NCBI GenBank assembly: GCA_020055645.1
Contig: CM034546.1
Span: 30,070,001 to 30,134,000, forward strand
Length of the DNA stretch: 64,000 bases
DNA from: Tomocerus qinae
Lineage: Eukaryota; Arthropoda; Collembola; Entomobryomorpha; Tomoceridae
Direction of reading: 5' to 3'
The notes beneath the pieces are model-generated. The model was not told where the DNA came from and did not search any database. It was given only the letters and a program-made list of their open reading frames with translations. This document shows positions 1 through 9,085 of this stretch, in pieces. The position numbers and the translations under genes are program-made. Each line of letters begins with the position of its first letter. The stretch's first letter is position 1.

Positions 1-477
1 AGATGACAAGGACGCTGGAAGATAATCGTTGATTAGTCGACGTGGTGGCCCGAATTCATGATAGATGCAGAAAACACCACAGGTTACACCAAAACCAACT
101 GAAAAGGGAATTGTTGCTTTCACAGACATGAGAACCGCTTTGATTTTGAATCCGTGGACATCGTCTCGATTTGTTGGAAATAATTCTGGAATAATAATAA
201 AATCAAAATATAATGGTGACTTACATAGTTACATACTTGATTGGAAAGTTAATCCATCATTGTGAGTATGATCAGAGGCTGCTGTGTGAATTTTAACGTA
301 TACCCGCCCAACAAAACCAATAGACGCTTATAATTATAACAGTGAACCCAGCTAAGGGGACAAATCTAGCACTCAAGAGAAATTCAGCAGGCCATGCATC
401 ACAGTAATAAAAACAATTTCGAAATTCGAAAACATCCCATTAGGTTATTATGTTAACTTTGTAACTACAAAGTATAT

Positions 478-640
478 TTAAATTAATATACTTTTATTTT
501 CTACAATGGTAGGCAAAATTAGCTGCAGACCCAAATTCCTGATAAAAAGGAATTTTCTACACCAAAATAATAACTGTAGATTGTAGCATCAAATACGGAG
601 AACAATGAAAGACTCTATTTTCCAAAAAGCTCGCACAAAG
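478..640 (+). repeat. Dispersed repeat family, copy 1
   Basis: About 160 bp that match, in opposite orientation, the foreign segment inside the satellite at 19128-19296. Shared landmarks in the same order are aattaata, cctgataaaaa, a block containing aataataactgtagat, gtagcatcaaat, and aacaatgaaagactc. Divergence is roughly 15-20% by eye with small indels. No coding capacity, poly-A tail or clear terminal repeats were seen, so the class (SINE, MITE or other) is open. Confidence 0.7.
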
Positions 641-1093
641 TTACAAAAAAGCTCCCATTGAAAATCAAAAAAATTCGATTCCCCGTGGGATTTTGGAAAA
701 ACATACAAAATCCATGAGTACAACTTACGAATAAAATATTTTTAAAGAATAAATAGTGGTACCCAGTATACTGTTATTTAATTATACAAAAAGGTGTGCC
801 AACTATCAAAGAAATCAAGAGGGTAGTAAAAAAAAAAGTAAACCCAGCTCTACTAAATAATGTTGAATAAGTTTGTTGATGTAGCAGAACCAATGGATTG
901 AAGTTTTGAAATGCTATTTAATACGCACATTACTATCATTACTGTTCCCATTCGCTAATCATTTCTATTCACCCCTCACCATTCAACCTTTTTATGTAAA
1001 TTTCCATTTTGGTGTTATAATAATATGTAACGACTCATTTCGGTGGTTTAGAGGAATTGGGCTTGCGCATTTTGATTTTTTGCTTTTAAGGAG

Positions 1094-1206: not shown

Positions 1207-1395
1207 TTCCCTAGGCTGTCCTACCAGACATACATAGTTACATAGATAGATTGGTAAGTTTTTTTCCTTCTGTGTTTATTATATAGAGATGCTAGCATAT
1301 TACCGAATTCATTCAAAAACGAATGTAGACTAACTTTAAACTGTATTAGTTGACTTTAGAATTACATTCAAATATTACAATAACCCAGCACCCAC

Positions 1396-1762
1396 CTTGT
1401 AGATATTTATTCGCATTAAATATCGTAGTTATAATGACTGCTAATTCTTCACTCTTAATCGCAAGTTTTGTACATATGATAACTGCTATGGCATCCGCCA
1501 AACAGAAATAGATGAAGAAAACTATTTGTGTGATTACAAGTGTCTCGACGGGACGAAATAGTTGATGGAAAAGACGGACAGTATAACCTAAAGTTAGCAC
1601 AGCTAAGAAGGTTATGCAAAACCAACAATGAAGTCGCTTTTTCCAATTTTTTGAAGAGGAAACCTTTTTTGTTGCAAAATCCCATTCAAATGGTAAAAAG
1701 GAAAAGTATCCATTGATTTGGTGAAGATAGTCTACAGCGCCAAACAAAATTTCGTTGACCAT
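1396..1762 (-). CDS. Chemoreceptor (gustatory receptor-like) gene, exon 1 only
   Basis: First exon of a probable multi-pass membrane protein. The ATG is at 1762-1760. The frame runs 122 codons plus one base to a good splice donor (CAAG|GTGGGT, exon end 1396). The exon holds a PFEW motif near residues 24-27, then two hydrophobic stretches typical of transmembrane helices (about residues 45-63 and 77-96). It aligns residue by residue with the pseudogene exon at 7774-8170: an initial (D/N)EI, then PF-x-W, a W-K segment, and a helix followed by SE(E/D)-x-x-VI. The donor phase (phase 1) is the same in both. The layout resembles arthropod gustatory receptors, especially those expanded in springtails, but this is family-level inference. 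No later exon was found in the 1.4 kb to the window edge, so the gene is partial here or truncated. Confidence 0.5.
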
Positions 1763-2486
1763 TATGGAGTGTAATTATAGACTGCTTTCTTGGATTGGAT
1801 CTTTCCTGTTTCAAGTTGGCTGTAGTTGTGGAGAATTATTGTGAATGGTTGTCTTAGTATAGTTGACATACAATAAGTTTATTACAGGCCCTTGACTGTT
1901 TGAAGTTAGGTTATGGAAATAAGAAGTATTCATGAAGAATTGTATTAGAATTTTTCTCGGTATACATTACGTTCATTAATTGATGAATAATAAATATGTT
2001 TACCAAGGAGTGACTCTTCCTTATTTCCGTCGTATCAGATTTTGGACATGTTCAGCAAAATAAGGCGGTATATTCTAGTGTTGAAAGCTTTCTAGTTTTT
2101 AATGTCAATTGGATATTTCAAGCATTTCTACACTTTGATAAGCTACAAGTAGCAGGCAGATACTTCTCTATTGGTTTATTTATATAGGAACTGAAAACTT
2201 TTCCTTGAATGTAAATGTAAACCACAAGAATATTGTGAAATATGAAAGGCGTGCGATGTCTCCTGTCTATCTGTATTCTATTTCTTATGTCTGTGTCTTC
2301 TTCGGGGAACACAGAAAACCTTTTGATTAATCATTTTCTTGAGTATTTGAATCCGAGAATCCTATAATGTAGAATGACTATAGAATTATAGTCAAGACTT
2401 ATATATTATATCTTGGTACTGTTTCCACTTAAGTGTAATTAGTACAACATACATGTATAGACAAAACATCAAAAGCCGCATTCATC
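1763..2486. other. Spacer between two chemoreceptor-like genes
   Basis: About 0.7 kb of AT-rich DNA between the start codon of the exon at 1396-1762 and the last stop codon of the upstream chemoreceptor-like pseudogene. It should hold the promoter of the downstream gene, but no TATA box or other motif stands out. The short open frame at 2118-2312 shows no recognisable features. Confidence 0.5.
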
Positions 2487-2634
2487 CTAAAAACAGGGAT
2501 AGCTAATACTTTTGCTATTTTTCCCCTTCTTATAGACTGAAAATAAAACGTGGAATAATCTCTGAATGGTGATCAGATCATCTAAACCAATTCTAAAATG
2601 AATATGCTTGCTTGCAGAATATTTGTAGAAAATT

Positions 2635-2647
2635 ACTGCAGAATATT
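2635..2647. repeat. Target-site duplication, left copy
   Basis: actgcagaatatt, identical to 7158-7170, directly before the GC-rich 5' end of the LINE. The sequence belongs to exon 3 of the chemoreceptor-like pseudogene. The first three bases could also be part of the ACT-repeat tail at the other end, so the true duplication is 10-13 bp. Confidence 0.85.
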
Positions 2648-3024
2648 GAGAGCTCCCGCGCCCGCGTAAGCGAGGAACATCAGCAGAAATTGAACGGGAA
2701 ATCAAAAAATTAGATTTTTAATTGTTTAACCCATTAGATTACTAAAATTGATGTTAGCTTCGTTAACACATATTCACAAACTCTACGCCTAAGTGAAATC
2801 CAATCGAATCCAAGCTCGGTCTAGACAGTGGATTAATTTCCGAAATAATTTTTTGGCAAATCAAAGGCGGGAGTCTAGTGCCGAGCACTCACAAAGGCAA
2901 GTAAAATATCTATTTACGAAAATTTCGCGAAAATTTCGCCATTTTACGTACTCACCAATTATCCGTATTAGCCTGTTCAAATTTCAAACGCAGTTACTAC
3001 CGAGGGCATTTACTTTTTTGTCAG

Positions 3025-3710
3025 ATGACTTTGGAAAGCAGTACTAATACACCGGTAACGAAAAAACGAAAAATAGACGAGATGCAGCTGGAGGACGTAG
3101 CAAAACTAGTTCAAGAACTGGGGAAAAAATAGATAATTCTATTCAACTAGTGACGGATCTGACGAATTTCACCTCTTCCCTCCAGTCTAAAATTACCTCA
3201 CTGGAATCCGATGTACAAAACTGCAATAAAAAAATTCAAGATCTCACAGCGGAAAACCGGAAGCTAATGACTGAAATGAAAGCAAAGAATATGATAATCC
3301 ATGGTATCCAGGAATCACAAGGGGAAACATCAGCTGACATCGTTAAAACTGTGTCCTCTCTATTTAGAGAGATAAACATTAACGGAGTGCAAATTGACAT
3401 TGCTCATCGAATCGGAAAAGTTAGTGGCACTGCAGTCAGACCGATCAAAATTGCGTTAACCTGCTTGAGGGACAAGAATAGACTGATGGCCGGTGCCAAA
3501 AATTTGAAAGCCAATCCAAATACTGCTGGGGTCTTCTTCAATGACGACCTTCCATTAGAAATCAGAAAAGGCCGAGGACTACTTAGAAAGACAAGATCAG
3601 AAGCCGCAGCAAAAGGACATAAGGTTACCTTGAGAGGAGATGTACTTATCATCGATGGAGTCGACTACATCGCCAAAAATGACGCCGTAGTCAAATCGAT
3701 AGAGGCGTAG
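3025..3710 (+). pseudogene. LINE ORF1 (RNA-binding protein), with one frameshift
   Basis: The likely start is the ATG at 3025. The first 35 codons carry a basic KKRK nuclear-signal-like motif and stop at TAG 3130-3132, directly after a run of six A. Reading resumes without a gap in the frame that is open from 3129 to TAG 3708-3710, so a one-base length change in the A-run explains the break. The downstream part starts with a polar heptad-like segment suited to a coiled coil. It continues with an RRM-like core (NMIIHGIQES, later IAHRIGK and RPIKIAL) and a basic C-terminal part (NDDLPLEIRKGRGLLRKTR) as in L1-type ORF1 proteins that bind the element RNA. An assembly error in the homopolymer, or frameshifting in translation, are alternatives to a real mutation. 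Confidence 0.75.
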
Positions 3711-6700
3711 GATGAAGGCAGCAACACACAATCTTCTCTCAAAAAGTCTATCTCTATTATCTTCTGGAATTCGGACGGTCTGGTTAATCAATTCGCGTAT
3801 GATAAACTAAATTTTATTTTGAATCAAAATCCTAACATTTTTTGCATTGCTGAAACTTGGTGTCTAAGTGAAAAGGCAATTAAATGTCAGCAAATTCTTC
3901 TAAAACTAAAACAGCTGTATAAAATAACTATTATCGGTGCTAAGTATAACTTCCGCGCAGGAAGAAATATGGGGGGATTTTTATTAGGTATTAAATTGGA
4001 TATAGATAATTTTGTAAATTACAAAAACAATTCTCAATACTTGGTATCGATCGAAATTGACAAAAACTATGGTATAGATAATAATTTAGTAATTAATTTT
4101 TCGTACTGTGCACCCTCAGTAGACGGAGACAACCATTTTGAAAATATTTTACAGTTACTTGAAAATAATTATCACAAAAACAGAATTTTTATGGGTGACC
4201 TGAACGCAAGGCTGGGTTGTTCTTCCGATCTACACATAAATAGTAAAGATAAAAAGACTAATAACAGAGGTAAAAAACTTTTAGAGTGTAAGCTAAATAA
4301 TTGGTATGTTTGTAATGGCAGTGTCCCGGGGGATTTGAACGGAGAATTTACTTTTGTCAATGCTAACGGAGCCAGCACAGTAGATATTTCCTTGGTGACT
4401 CCGAATGTGTTAAAAAACATAACTAATTTCACTATTCTTGATCAAAATCTCGCAGGCCACTTCCCCTTACTTCTTAAAATGGAAACTGGAAAAACCGAGC
4501 CGAAGAAATTAAAGGCAGTAAGAACCAGGAGAATAAAATGGGAACCAAAGAAAGCAAAATCGTTTGAAATGCAATTAAGGAACATTCATAAGCAACTGAA
4601 CAAAAAGGACCCTAGTTTTGATATTCTAGTCAACTCCATTTATAAAGCGGCACAAGATTGTGGAATGCAAACATCGACTTTCAACGCAAAGGGCAACTCG
4701 TCAGCTCCCCCGTGGGCAGATCAAGAATACATAACCTCCAAGAAATCTCTATCTAATGCACTAAAAAGATTCCGGAAAGCTCATCCTGCCATAGACTACT
4801 ATGAATACCAAACAAGTAAAAATACCTTTTTAGCTAACAAAAAATGGCACAACAATCTAACTATACGTAAAAAAGCGGAATATTTTAATGAAATTCACAA
4901 AAAGATTCTAAAAGCTAGAAACTCAAAGGAATTTTGGGAAGCAATCGGCGTATTCAGACAAGGGGACAAATCAAAAATCTATGGAGACATCACACTGCAG
5001 CAATGGCAGCTTCATTTTAAATCGGTATTCCAGAAATACTCCAACGCTCGTAATGATATAATAACATTCCCACAAAGAACTGAAGATTATCTCGACTCAC
5101 CAATCAACATGTTTGAGCTCAATCTCGCAATCAAAAAAATTGGGAACAACAAGGCAAGTGGACAGGATTGTATCCCAAATGAAGTCTGGAAAGCATTACC
5201 CAAAGAATCCAAAATGGATTTAATCGATTTATTCAACAGAGTACTTTCAACTCCAGAATCAATGCCCGAAAATTGGGGAGAAATTGTAATTGTACCGTTA
5301 TTTAAGAAAGGAAACCCGAATATGACTGCAAACTACCGCCCAATTTCCCTAATCAATACAGTAACAAAACTTTTTACTACAATAATATCGTCGAGATTAA
5401 GTACCTGGTGCGATAAACATAATAAAATCAGCGAATATCAAGCCGGCTTTAAAAAAAACACTGGGTGCGAAGATCAAATATTTATATTGAACACACTGAT
5501 ACAGAAAACAATAAAAAAACCTGGAGGGAAGTTATTCGCACTTTTTATCGACATTTCTCAAGCATTTGATGGAACTTGCCAATCAACTCTTTGGCACAAG
5601 CTCTACAAGGCAGGAATTAGCTCTCAGTTCTTAGCCATGATCCAAACTTTGTACTCCCACGCCAGAGCAGTGATCAGAACACCAGATGGCCTCAGTCAAG
5701 AGATTGAAATCTTCAACTCAGTGCTACAAGGCGAAATTTTATCGCCAAAATTATATACTCTTTTTATAAATGATATAATAGAGGCAATTAACGAAACAGA
5801 AACATCGAGTATCCGCATTGGGAATTGGAAAATTCATATGCTTCTTTTTGCTGATGACATTGTGTGTGTAGCAAAATCGCCGATGGACCTACGGAAAAAA
5901 TTATTACGACTGCAAGAATACTTTGAGGAGAATAAGTTGCAATTAAATCTGGGAAAATCGAAAATAGTCATTTTTAGAAGAGGCACAAACGCACTGAAGT
6001 ATAACTTTTATTGGGGATCGGACAAAATTGAAATAGTGCGAAGCTATACGTATTTGGGAGTTCCATTCCACGCCTCTGGATCTTTTAAAAGAACCAAGGA
6101 TGTTTTTATTTCGAACGCTACAGCAGCCGCCAAAAAACTGATCTCTCTCAACGTGAAAAGCAAAACTAACTCGCTCAGAACACAGGAGAAATTATTTAAT
6201 TCCTAAGTACGGTCAGTTCTCTTTTATGCAGTGCCGGTGTGGGGAATCAACTTCATTAACGAATTTATTTCTTTCCAATTTAGATTCCTCAGGCAAGCCT
6301 TATACCTACCTAGAGAAACACCCAGATGGAAGATAGCATTAGAAACGGGAATGAGCCCCATCGACTCATTCTTACTTAATCTAATTCTTAAGTTCATTAT
6401 CCGTGTCAAATCAAAACCCCCGGGTAAGCTTGTCAGAGATTGTTTTGAGGTTTGTCAAGAGAATTGTCAGGGAATTGAAAATTTTACGCCTTGGTTCCAC
6501 AATCTTTGTAAGTTTCTAGAAGAAAAAAAGTGTTTGCACGTTCTAAAAGATAGACATTTAAATTTGAAAACAGTAAAACGTATTATTAATAATGATAAGC
6601 TAAGAATTAACTCGGAAAACATTGTATTGATGAATAGTAATAGGTCTTGTAATTATAGTTCCATAAAAGCCAAAATAGGTACAGAACAGTACTTATGTGG

Positions 6701-7046
6701 AAAAATACCTTGGTCGGTGGCCAGACTCATTGCGCAAGTAAGAATGAATTTAAACTATATTACCATTGACAGAAAATCTTACTGGTTAAACTATTCTCGT
6801 ATTGGTGGGTTTAAAAATTGCGATTTATGTAACCTTAATGACAATGAAGATGTTTTTCATCTCCTCTTTAAATGTCCGCATTATGCTAATGCACGAAATG
6901 GGTACATAAATTCTCTTTCAGAGGTAAATTACACGAGAAATAATTTTCTAACAATTTTCAAAAACTTAGATCCAAAAAAGGCATGTCTTCTTTATATATT
7001 CTTTAAGCGGGCTATTAAGATAAGAAATTTCATATTAGAATATTAA
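3711..7046 (+). pseudogene. LINE ORF2: endonuclease and reverse transcriptase, one nonsense codon
   Basis: This is the enzyme that nicks the target DNA and primes reverse transcription there. The endonuclease begins at once with the motif IIFWNSDGL and continues with CIAETW (catalytic Glu) and GDLNARLG. The last motif reads AGHFPL, where Asp-His is usual. The reverse transcriptase shows NKASGQDCIPNEVW, NYRPISLINTVTKLF, motif A FIDISQAFD, motif B LQGEILSPKLY and motif C FADD. The C-terminus has a C-x2-C-x8-H-x4-C knuckle (CDLC ... HLLFKC). The frame is about 1,110 codons long and broken only by TAA at 6204-6206; reading continues in the same frame on both sides. It is also in the same frame as ORF1, separated only by TAG 3708-3710, and has no in-frame ATG before 3969, which would be inside the endonuclease. 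An ATG at 3712 lies in another frame and stops at 3807. Confidence 0.85.
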
Positions 7047-7134
7047 TTAGGAATATTTTGTAATGTTTATATCATTATTGTTAAAATACCTATGTAAAAA
7101 CAAGCTATGATTGTGTGTTGTGTGCCAAACAATC

Positions 7135-7157
7135 AATAAAGTACTACTACTACTACT
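7135..7157 (+). terminator. LINE polyadenylation signal and ACT-repeat tail
   Basis: AATAAA at 7135-7140 is followed by a simple (TAC/ACT)n tail that runs into the target-site duplication. Microsatellite tails in place of poly-A occur in several LINE clades, so this marks the 3' end recognised during target-primed reverse transcription. Confidence 0.75.
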
Positions 7158-7170
7158 ACTGCAGAATATT
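7158..7170. repeat. Target-site duplication, right copy
   Basis: actgcagaatatt, identical to 2635-2647. On the minus strand it reads in frame as part of exon 3 of the chemoreceptor-like pseudogene. Confidence 0.85.
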
Positions 7171-8170
7171 TAAATATATTGCTGTATTTGATGATGCCAT
7201 CAGCAGATTCACTAACCACGTCTTTCGATTTGTATCTTAGAAGATATTTACTGCCTTGTCTGAAAAATATTTACAAAAGTAATCATTGCTCCAAGTTTTC
7301 TATCAATGAATAAATTATATATTTAAACTATTTACAGAAACATTTAAACCTAAACGAATAAATGAAATTACATCAACTCACTCCTTTCTTAAGCCTTTAA
7401 TAGCTTCATACACAAGTAGAAGTAATGCAAGAGCAATGAAATTAATACAGGCACAAGGTGATGCCCCCCAAAATTGTATTAACCCAAAGATAAAGAGTAT
7501 TACAAATTGTTGGTATTCTCTTTTGAGTTCTGTATGGAGAGATGTGGGCTCTGTAGGGCCTAATGTCACTGTAGTTGAGAACGAAGTAATTCAGCAAACA
7601 CACGGAGCAATATAGGGAGTTCTCATTGCTCTTACCAAATATTTGTTTAATATTTTTTGTTTGATGGGCACGAATATTTTTATGGTCTTTATCATATCTA
7701 CAATTTTTTTATAAAGCAACATTGAATATATTTAGGTAGAAAAATTATTTCGAATGAATAGTAAGTTCAAACCTTCAAAGTCGTGAGCAATGTTGATCAT
7801 GTTTGTTACAATAACAGTGACGTCCTCTGAATATTTATGCCACAGTATATACGACAAAAATGCTAGGGACCATACAATGGCACCTATACCATAGACACAA
7901 GGTAGGATAGAGAACTAGCCCCACGATTGGCAAATCTAATAGCTGTATGACAATACAGAAGCCTGATTTTATTTCTTTCCACTTTTATTGCGTAGTCTGT
8001 CCTCATTTCCTGCTCCATTTGAACGGACATAATTCGAACATATGTTCCTGATTAATAATGCATTTCACTTCATCAAAAATCTCATCTGGAATTAAATGTA
8101 TAGCTTTCTTATTTTCTTCATTTGAATCCACCTCCAAATTAAGATTAATTTCCATGGTAGTTAGAAACAT

Positions 8171-9085
8171 TAGTTTTTTGGGCTTAGTAAAACTTACGAA
8201 TGGTAGTTTTAGTAGACGCGCTTTCCGCACACTTATTGTACTGTTTTCATTTAATTTGTCTAAACTATTTAAATGCCATTTACTACTTAAGAAGGTAAGT
8301 ATTTGAACATCTTCTGTGTTTATAATATAGATATAATACTCCGGAGCAAGACTTTTATGGACATTATGAATTTATAAACAGTGATTATAATAGCTGCTAG
8401 CAACACATGACATTTCTACATTATATATAGGGCATTTATTATGTTAAAGGGCAATTGTTATATTAGTTATATTATACAATGGTCGCCAAGGTAAATAAAT
8501 ACGATTGCATATTTTGCATTATAGGTACATATAGGTACTTAAATGTAAGCTTAAAGCTAGTAAAATTAAAAAAACAAAATCCACGCAAAATAATAGTTCA
8601 ACATGAGACTTGAATTGTTGACGCCTACTAAAATGTTGGCCCAATTCATTCCAACGCATTTCATACGAAAATTATTAAACTTGATATGCCTAGTAACAAT
8701 CTTAACTGTCAAGGGAAATGTTTCACAGTTCTCTAAACATGTAAAATTAAAACTGAAAATGGACAGCTTTGCAAAATTTTTAATTAGTAACAAATAATTA
8801 AAACATTTTATATTTATATTTTGTTAAATTTTATCCCCCATTAGGTATTATAATAGGGATTAAATTAAATCATGATTACTAAATTAGTTCTATATTACAT
8901 AAATTAAACCTATTTATATTGTAACACCATATTTTATATAAAGTAATCGCTTCTGTCGTGGTTTCGATATTATAGGTCAATTTTAAAAATAGCACAAGGC
9001 ACTAGTGACGTGTAGCTAGTAAATTGGAATGTAAATTGTATAAGTACATTGGTTCGTATGGATTACCATGGTGTCCTATTTTTTA
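8171..9085. other. Intergenic DNA between pseudogene and zinc-finger gene
   Basis: AT-rich spacer between the 5' end of the receptor-like pseudogene and the 3' end of the zinc-finger gene, both on the minus strand. The overlapping open frames at 8566-8793 (minus) and 8603-8797 (plus) have no recognisable domain. An AATAAA on the minus strand overlaps the stop region of the zinc-finger gene (about 9082-9087) and may serve as its polyadenylation signal. Confidence 0.45.

Follow-up and report, generated by a model that had tools for sequence, protein, structure and literature searches.

A young LINE inserted in an apparently long-decayed member of a large multi-membrane-span gene family in Tomocerus qinae

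In a 64,000-nucleotide stretch of the Tomocerus qinae genome (hereafter, the window), a non-LTR retrotransposon lies within the remains of a three-exon gene (Table 1). This arrangement raises the question of whether the insertion disabled a working gene or landed in one that was already dead, and the further question of whether the gene encoded a chemoreceptor. The analysis described below favors, with a probability of about 0.9, an account in which the LINE was inserted into an already long-decayed pseudogene, an exon deletion is probably older than the LINE, and the lesions of the LINE itself came later. The nature of the host gene family is a separate matter on which the evidence is divided.

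Table 1. Features of the locus (positions within the window)
Feature	Position	Strand	Basis
Gene B (second multi-TM gene), first exon	1394..1762	-	sequence comparison
Exon 3, 3' part, with deletion junction and insertions	2450..2633	-	paralog alignment; homology to tandem units
Target-site duplication, 5' copy TACTGCAGAATATT	2634..2647	+	identical 14-mer
Non-LTR retrotransposon (LINE): ORF1, ORF2, AATAAA, (TAC)n tail	2648..7159	+	Pfam; sister-copy alignment
LINE ORF1	3027..3710	+	alignment with sister copy L049
LINE ORF2 (endonuclease + reverse transcriptase)	3711..7046	+	Pfam; alignment with L049
Target-site duplication, 3' copy; TAC overlaps tail repeat	7157..7170	+	identical 14-mer
Exon 3, 5' part, in frame with paralogs	7171..7259	-	paralog alignment
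Exon 2 remnant	7372..7679	-	paralog alignment; ends placed by hand
Exon 1 remnant	7773..8155	-	paralog alignment; ends placed by hand

In ORF2 of the element, Pfam search identified RVT_1 above its cut-off (E = 1.4e-30). Two endonuclease profiles fall just short of theirs, Exo_endo_phos_2 at 7.9e-6 (26.2 bits, where 27.4 are required) and Exo_endo_phos at 1.4e-4, and a weak C-terminal match to zf-RVT (0.0035) also stays below the cut-off. There are no LTRs around the element, given that the longest direct repeat between positions 2300 and 8400, among 20 listed of 26 families, is 44 nt at 70%. With reverse transcriptase and an APE-like endonuclease in ORF2, a target-site duplication, a 3' simple-repeat tail and no LTRs, the element is a full-length APE-type LINE, antisense to the host gene. 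The ORF2 architecture, the short target duplication, the simple-repeat tail and the antisense position in a gene are all shared with known APE-type LINEs, and mechanistically there is nothing new here; the difference is that the search turned up few close copies, a single one at 99% and a pair at 90% over the 3'-most 954 bases.

The sister copy L049, which aligns from 2654 to 7159 of the window LINE except for a nested insertion of its own, differs at 71 of 4495 compared bases. It has the same layout and is flanked by its own duplication, TACACCATGTAAAT, which, as read by eye, likewise begins with TAC. In the region 4483-7157, where the two copies differ at 41 positions, the outgroup L050 places 15 of the differences on the side of the window copy and 22 on that of L049 and leaves 4 unassigned, so that about 0.6% of this region is private to the window LINE. 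Even this value is an upper bound, since the distribution of the ORF2 differences over codon positions 1, 2 and 3 (12, 8 and 26, respectively) implies that some of them predate the insertion. An in-frame TAA at 6204-6206 in ORF2 is present in the window copy only (it is absent from L049, L050 and L051), and an A run near 3124 in ORF1 is one base shorter than in L049, which stays in frame. Given that neither the stop nor the 1-nt frameshift is found in L049, the window LINE probably arrived with open frames. As noted originally, the LINE is young by comparison of the copies, a recent arrival at this locus.

The 14-mer TACTGCAGAATATT occurs exactly twice in the window, immediately flanking the element. 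The originally proposed 13-bp target duplication is real, with identical flanks, but its length can only be given as 11-14 bp because the (TAC)n tail may account for its first three letters. When the LINE and one flank copy are removed, 86 open codons run across the junction on the minus strand, and the predicted open empty site holds to this extent; however, 50 of 2000 dinucleotide shuffles did as well, so the open frame is modest evidence only. The acceptor of exon 3, TTTTTCAG at 7260 (placed by hand), is located at the same place as in the paralogs, in agreement with the claim of a splice-consistent third exon. An empty allele of the exact insertion site was not found among 16 non-self right-flank matches (63-74% identical), nor was an empty-site copy found in the neighboring tandem units, in which the exon is represented by its tail alone, from about residue 86 on.

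The same site can be followed in paralogs within this genome. The start of exon 3 has counterparts in eight paralog exons, and six of these (L009, L014, L015a, L015b, L016 and L018) run through the site in one frame; L011 also extends past the site, with a frame shift just after it and a stop at residue 99. In L013, exon 3 breaks off after residue 25, near the corresponding position, and gives way to unrelated sequence that had no LINE match; we regard this as a coincidence. The window LINE had no match in any of the eleven loci checked.

Alignment with the paralogs reveals lesions in all three exons of the window gene. Exon 1 carries an 8-nt insertion (8006-7999), a 39-nt deletion (~7941) and a 2-nt insertion (~7885), from which the stops in the frames of this exon result. 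The intron 1 acceptor AG is absent from the position that it occupies in the paralogs, and exon 2 contains a TGA at 7593-7591 and an apparent 4-nt insertion at the 3' end. Measured against the six full-length paralog exons, which are about 510 nt long, exon 3 lacks ~251-258 nt. The paralog sequence that falls between the two exon 3 halves is open coding sequence in all six, so its interpretation as an intron was rejected. Exon 3 also contains frame-shifting insertions of 2 nt at ~2559 and 5 nt at ~2530, and therefore the end of the previously proposed open frame, down to 2490, is out of register.

As judged from these alignments, the decay of the gene is much deeper than that of the LINE. A strict count of frame- and splice-breaking lesions gives 6 for the gene, over ~950 nt, and 2 for the coding sequence of the LINE, over ~4020 nt (P about 0.001); inclusion of the large deletion and the 4-nt insertion gives 8 against 2 (P about 5.5e-5), and a harsher count gives 5 against 2 (P = 0.004), where the lesions were counted by eye on alignments and the test assumes equal per-base rates and approximate lengths. 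The terminal branch of the window gene (~0.32 substitutions per site) shows nearly equal rates across codon positions: the ratio of positions 1+2 to position 3 is 0.97, with a wide bootstrap range of 0.68-1.48, compared to 0.37, 0.58 and 0.59 on the L014, L015b and L018 branches. The difference between the window ratio and the mean of these three was zero or below in none of 100 bootstraps. For L016 the ratio is 0.94; its acceptor is misplaced, and this gene, which may be a young pseudogene, is a poor yardstick. Support in the tree is only 66-68 for three of the inner branches.

Lesion density and codon-position decay together indicate that the gene was dead well before the LINE arrived, in line with the original expectation that the young element would allow the order of events to be dated. 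That the LINE killed a working gene and all the remaining lesions came afterwards is compatible with the open frame across the empty site and with its location inside conserved coding sequence; nevertheless, such a scenario is highly improbable, considering that private change in the LINE amounts to about 0.6% at most, with two coding lesions of its own, whereas the gene has a long terminal branch, near-equal codon-position rates and several-fold more lesions per base. The timing of the ~250-nt exon 3 deletion is a closer question. Its junction is best placed at ~2615, separated from the target duplication by only ~20 bp, and the duplication 10-mer GCAGAATATT recurs exactly at this junction (2614-2623); furthermore, a weaker alternative junction coincides with the duplication edge (2634-2635). 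These features would fit a deletion that was caused by the insertion or followed it. Target-site deletions usually remove the target duplication, however, and here it is intact on both sides. The homology of the tandem units to exon 3 stops at 2611/2612, and these units, which lack the deletion, have diverged from the window by 15-20%, so that the interval preceding the LINE was far longer than the one since. We therefore consider a deletion concurrent with or later than the insertion unlikely, and one that predates the LINE most likely.

Under the favored reading, in which the gene died first, the host gene would have decayed as a member of a large multi-membrane-span family, with the exon 3 deletion arising most likely ahead of the LINE. 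The full-length element would then have been copied into the last exon by target-primed reverse transcription, producing a target duplication of ~14 bp whose TAC matches the TAC-repeat tail, and would later have acquired its own frameshift and stop.

What was the host gene? The family's last exon has 150 scored matches among 522 candidates in the genome, 145 of them on contig C1 and 145 stop-free, and the window gene is, by homology, a dead member of this very large expanded family of predicted multi-TM proteins of ~400 aa encoded in 3 exons. Its reading as a gustatory receptor found no support in the sequence searches, in which nothing rose above chance, the outcome originally named as counting against a receptor. 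Pfam yielded no 7tm_7 match for any piece of the gene, the L016 model protein or six A1 members, only weak unrelated ones among the latter (DUF1576, 0.0028, and GST_C_7, 0.049, each in one of the six) and a further weak GST_C_7 match (0.15) among the host-family and gene B proteins; a PDB sequence search with the family members tested found no match. When the family was compared, profile to profile, with six 7tm_7 genes from this genome, the score was 16.2, a value attained in 19 of 40 block-shuffled controls (13.5-22.3); an earlier version, with two proteins misframed, had scored 20.1 in one direction and 14.9 in the reverse. Of 247 candidates for the 7tm_7 profile itself in the genome, 111 were scored and 46 matched, none of them at the fetched family loci.

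Gene B, whose first exon has two further tandem copies in L053, resembles the host family faintly (hhalign E = 0.004, probability 8.5%; tblastn 0.001 and 0.008) and likewise has only weak unrelated Pfam matches (DUF6463, 0.069; Prion_bPrPp, 0.38; FA_desaturase, 0.02; Prominin, 0.1; GerA, 0.3).

Like arthropod gustatory receptors (Pfam 7tm_7, PF08395), the family members are ~400 aa long, have similarly spaced hydrophobic stretches and form a multicopy set with pseudogenes. By simple hydropathy, the correctly framed models of L014, L016 and L015b contain 6, 7 and 5 such stretches (L009 and L018, with 8 and 3, were misframed in that run), compared to 5-8, with much the same spacing, in the six 7tm_7 genes. 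Unlike those receptors, the family lacks a profile match and scores at chance level in the profile-profile comparison; the C-terminal TYhhhhhQF motif (or T/SxxxxxxQF), which PMC9998090 gives as a gustatory receptor feature, is absent by eye from all six paralog last exons; and the introns of L014 and L018, read by hand, are in phases 1 and 2, with no further intron in the last exon, whereas GRs are described in the same paper as having phase 0 intron(s) toward the 3' end. The term chemoreceptor-like covers no more than similarity in length and hydropathy pattern. That the family is not a receptor at all and represents some other multi-TM family has a nearly even chance: the missing database matches, the chance-level score, the distinct 7tm_7 loci, the C-terminus and the intron phases all argue for it, against the length, the 5-7 hydrophobic stretches, their receptor-like spacing and the large copy number. 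A tentative candidate of somewhat lower standing is that the family represents a cryptic expansion of the chemoreceptor type (7TMIC, a class defined by seven TM helices, a long TM4-6 anchor and a split TM7), distinct from the 7tm_7 receptors of the genome; it would then have a sensory role. In this respect, the cryptic gustatory-receptor-like (Grl) proteins that came out of structure screens are multi-TM as well and, according to PMC9998090, are recognized by predicted structure rather than by sequence; the host family, in contrast, has many matches in one genome. Among the papers retrieved on springtail-type receptor families, no title or abstract opening names it.

The insertion itself is routine, an ordinary LINE landing in a dead gene, and its value is that the decay of the host gene can be read with the young element as a clock. 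Of greater interest as a lead is the large multi-TM family, perhaps sensory, that profile searches missed in the Tomocerus qinae genome; if this is a receptor family, receptor counts that rely solely on such profiles would fall far short.

The searched genome assembly (334 Mb in 115 contigs, with the window on contig C1) contains a near-identical sister copy of the window LINE at 42.12 Mb of the same contig (locus L049). The ORF2 of the window LINE contains a reverse transcriptase domain (RVT_1, Pfam E = 1.4e-30) and an endonuclease slightly under the cut-off (E = 7.9e-6); a weak zf-RVT match (0.0035), likewise under the cut-off, is located at the end of the ORF. The original prediction placed a 13-bp target duplication of this LINE inside a third exon of a minus-strand gene; the exon is real and the flanks are identical, but the shared flank is a 14-mer. 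The sister copy has its own flanks, TACACCATGTAAAT, which begin with TAC as those in the window do, and both sites fit target-primed reverse transcription, during which the TAC of the target would pair with the TAC tail of the LINE. Within ORF1, the sister copy carries a nested insertion of ~420 bp (~945-1357 of the locus).

Coordinates of the host gene, the LINE and other features of the window
Feature	Position	Strand	Remarks
Complete LINE	2648-7159	+	ORF1, ORF2, AATAAA, TAC repeat
LINE-flanking identical 14-mer	2634-2647 and 7157-7170		two occurrences in the whole window
Host gene exon 1	8155-7773	-	paralog comparison, ends placed by hand
Host gene exon 2	7679-7372	-	paralog comparison, ends placed by hand
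Host gene exon 3	starts 7259	-	paralog comparison, placed by hand
Gene B (MVNEI...) first exon	1762-1394		two more copies in L053 (C1:30060500-30070100); at least three first exons
C2H2 zinc finger open frame, 404 aa	9086-10300	-	zf-C2H2, Pfam E = 2.8e-15
Satellite array	19295-58185		~124 copies of a 314-bp repeat unit matching at 88%; more than half of the window

A genome search with window positions 7157-8371 yielded 17 places, including the window itself, the other 16 being covered by ten fetched regions, from which a three-exon structure emerges. Among these paralogs, L014 (413 aa) and L018 (416 aa) keep uninterrupted frames after splicing. The start of exon 3 is matched by eight paralog exons; in six of them (L009, L014, two in L015, L016 and L018), a single frame continues across the LINE site as far as the exon end. 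In L011, exon 3 passes the LINE site, with a frame shift directly after it and a stop at residue 99; in L013 (oriented 2951), it ends after residue 25 in unrelated sequence, near the place homologous to the LINE site. The window LINE matched none of 11 loci (the paralog loci and L053), the interrupting sequence of L013 included. An insertion of ~620 bp within exon 1 of L009 (oriented 3090-3713) indicates that this paralog is probably dead itself.

The joined exon 3, predicted to be open once the LINE is taken out, is indeed in the true frame from 7259 through the duplication, but it lacks 251-258 nt of the ~510 nt found in paralogs, and past the deletion junction insertions of +2 and +5 disrupt the frame. 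Summed over six paralogs, position 2615 fits the junction best and 2634-2635 is a weaker alternative; a third occurrence of the duplication 10-mer GCAGAATATT lies on the junction, at 2614-2623. Because the 86 open codons across the joined site were equalled in 50 of 2000 shuffles, the open frame taken alone says little.

The lesions of the gene, counted by eye on alignments, bear out the pseudogene call: exon 1 has +8, -39 and +2 changes, and the exon 2 region a TGA, a lost acceptor and an apparent +4, in addition to the ~250-nt deletion and two insertions in exon 3; small indels next to the duplication were left out of the count. The LINE is young, as proposed, differing from its sister at 71 of 4495 compared bases; among the 41 differences in 4483-7157 polarized with an outgroup copy (L050), 15 are private to the window, 22 to L049 and 4 unassigned. 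Since its ORF1 frameshift and ORF2 stop are both absent in L049, the LINE probably inserted with both frames open. Counting only strictly frame- or splice-breaking lesions gives 6 in the ~950 nt gene and 2 in the ~4020 nt LINE (binomial tail about 0.001); other counts give about 0.004 (5 vs 2), 2.3e-4 (7 vs 2), about 5.5e-5 (8 vs 2) and 1.3e-5 (9 vs 2).

Independent evidence comes from a tree built on eight sequences, some of them incomplete, with 296 codons retained; of the inner supports, three are 66-68 and two are 100. Here the terminal branch of the window gene measures 0.317 substitutions per site for codon positions 1+2 against 0.326 for position 3, a ratio of 0.97 (bootstrap range 0.68-1.48). 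The same ratio is 0.37 for L014, 0.58 for L015b (one of the L015 copies), and 0.59 for L018 and L017; two very short branches give 0.34 and 0.46, whereas L016 has a high value, 0.94. In every one of 100 bootstraps, the window gene had a higher ratio than L014, L015b and L018 considered jointly; the difference spanned 0.16-0.98 (95% range). By rough arithmetic from these figures, the neutral decay of the gene is, even at the low end, about twentyfold the private change of the LINE. The host gene was most likely already dead when the LINE arrived, an order that the original prediction had left open.

The region immediately downstream is a tandem array whose ~5 kb unit combines gene B, a second multi-TM gene, with dead tails from exon 3 of the host family; in L053, the gene B first exons, 77% and 80% identical to that of the window, alternate with such tails. 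Homology of the window to the units ends at 2611/2612, at the deletion junction, and the units extend into the exon part missing from the window; hence the deletion is probably later than the separation of the units (80-85% identity). It would most likely be older than the LINE, because far more time elapsed before the insertion than after it. In the same region, window 335-759 is common to L009, L010 and L013 (78-88% identity), and inverted copies of 334-1026 (80%) and 1025-1290 (86%) are present in the downstream units; 334-1290 is probably another mobile element.

The chemoreceptor-like nature proposed for the gene is supported by none of the sequence tests. Pfam searches with window pieces, the L016 model protein and paralog exons gave nothing relevant (few matches, weak and unrelated), and PDB sequences had no match to the host family. 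With 111 of 247 candidates scored, the gustatory-receptor profile 7tm_7 matches this genome 46 times, and therefore genes of this type are present; none of the 46 is at the ten fetched family loci, and two (C1:20.32 and 76.18 Mb) are within ~4 kb of other family exons, on the opposite strand. A profile-profile comparison of the family with six 7tm_7 genes scored 16.2, and 19 of the 40 controls made by shuffling scored at least as high. Two features given for gustatory receptors in PMC9998090 and PMC5644144, a TYhhhhhQF end and phase 0 introns, are both absent here. Nevertheless, hydropathy (5-7 stretches in three correctly framed models vs 5-8 in the six 7tm_7 genes) and family size favor the proposal: the last exon has 150 scored matches (522 candidates), 145 on C1 and 5 on C5, and 145 of the 150 are stop-free. 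The family is best described as multi-TM and possibly receptor-like; fold-based structure screens, according to PMC9998090, recovered receptor-like proteins. Overall, this is an ordinary, fairly well-resolved case of a young LINE within an old pseudogene; what deserves follow-up is the large family that the profiles miss.
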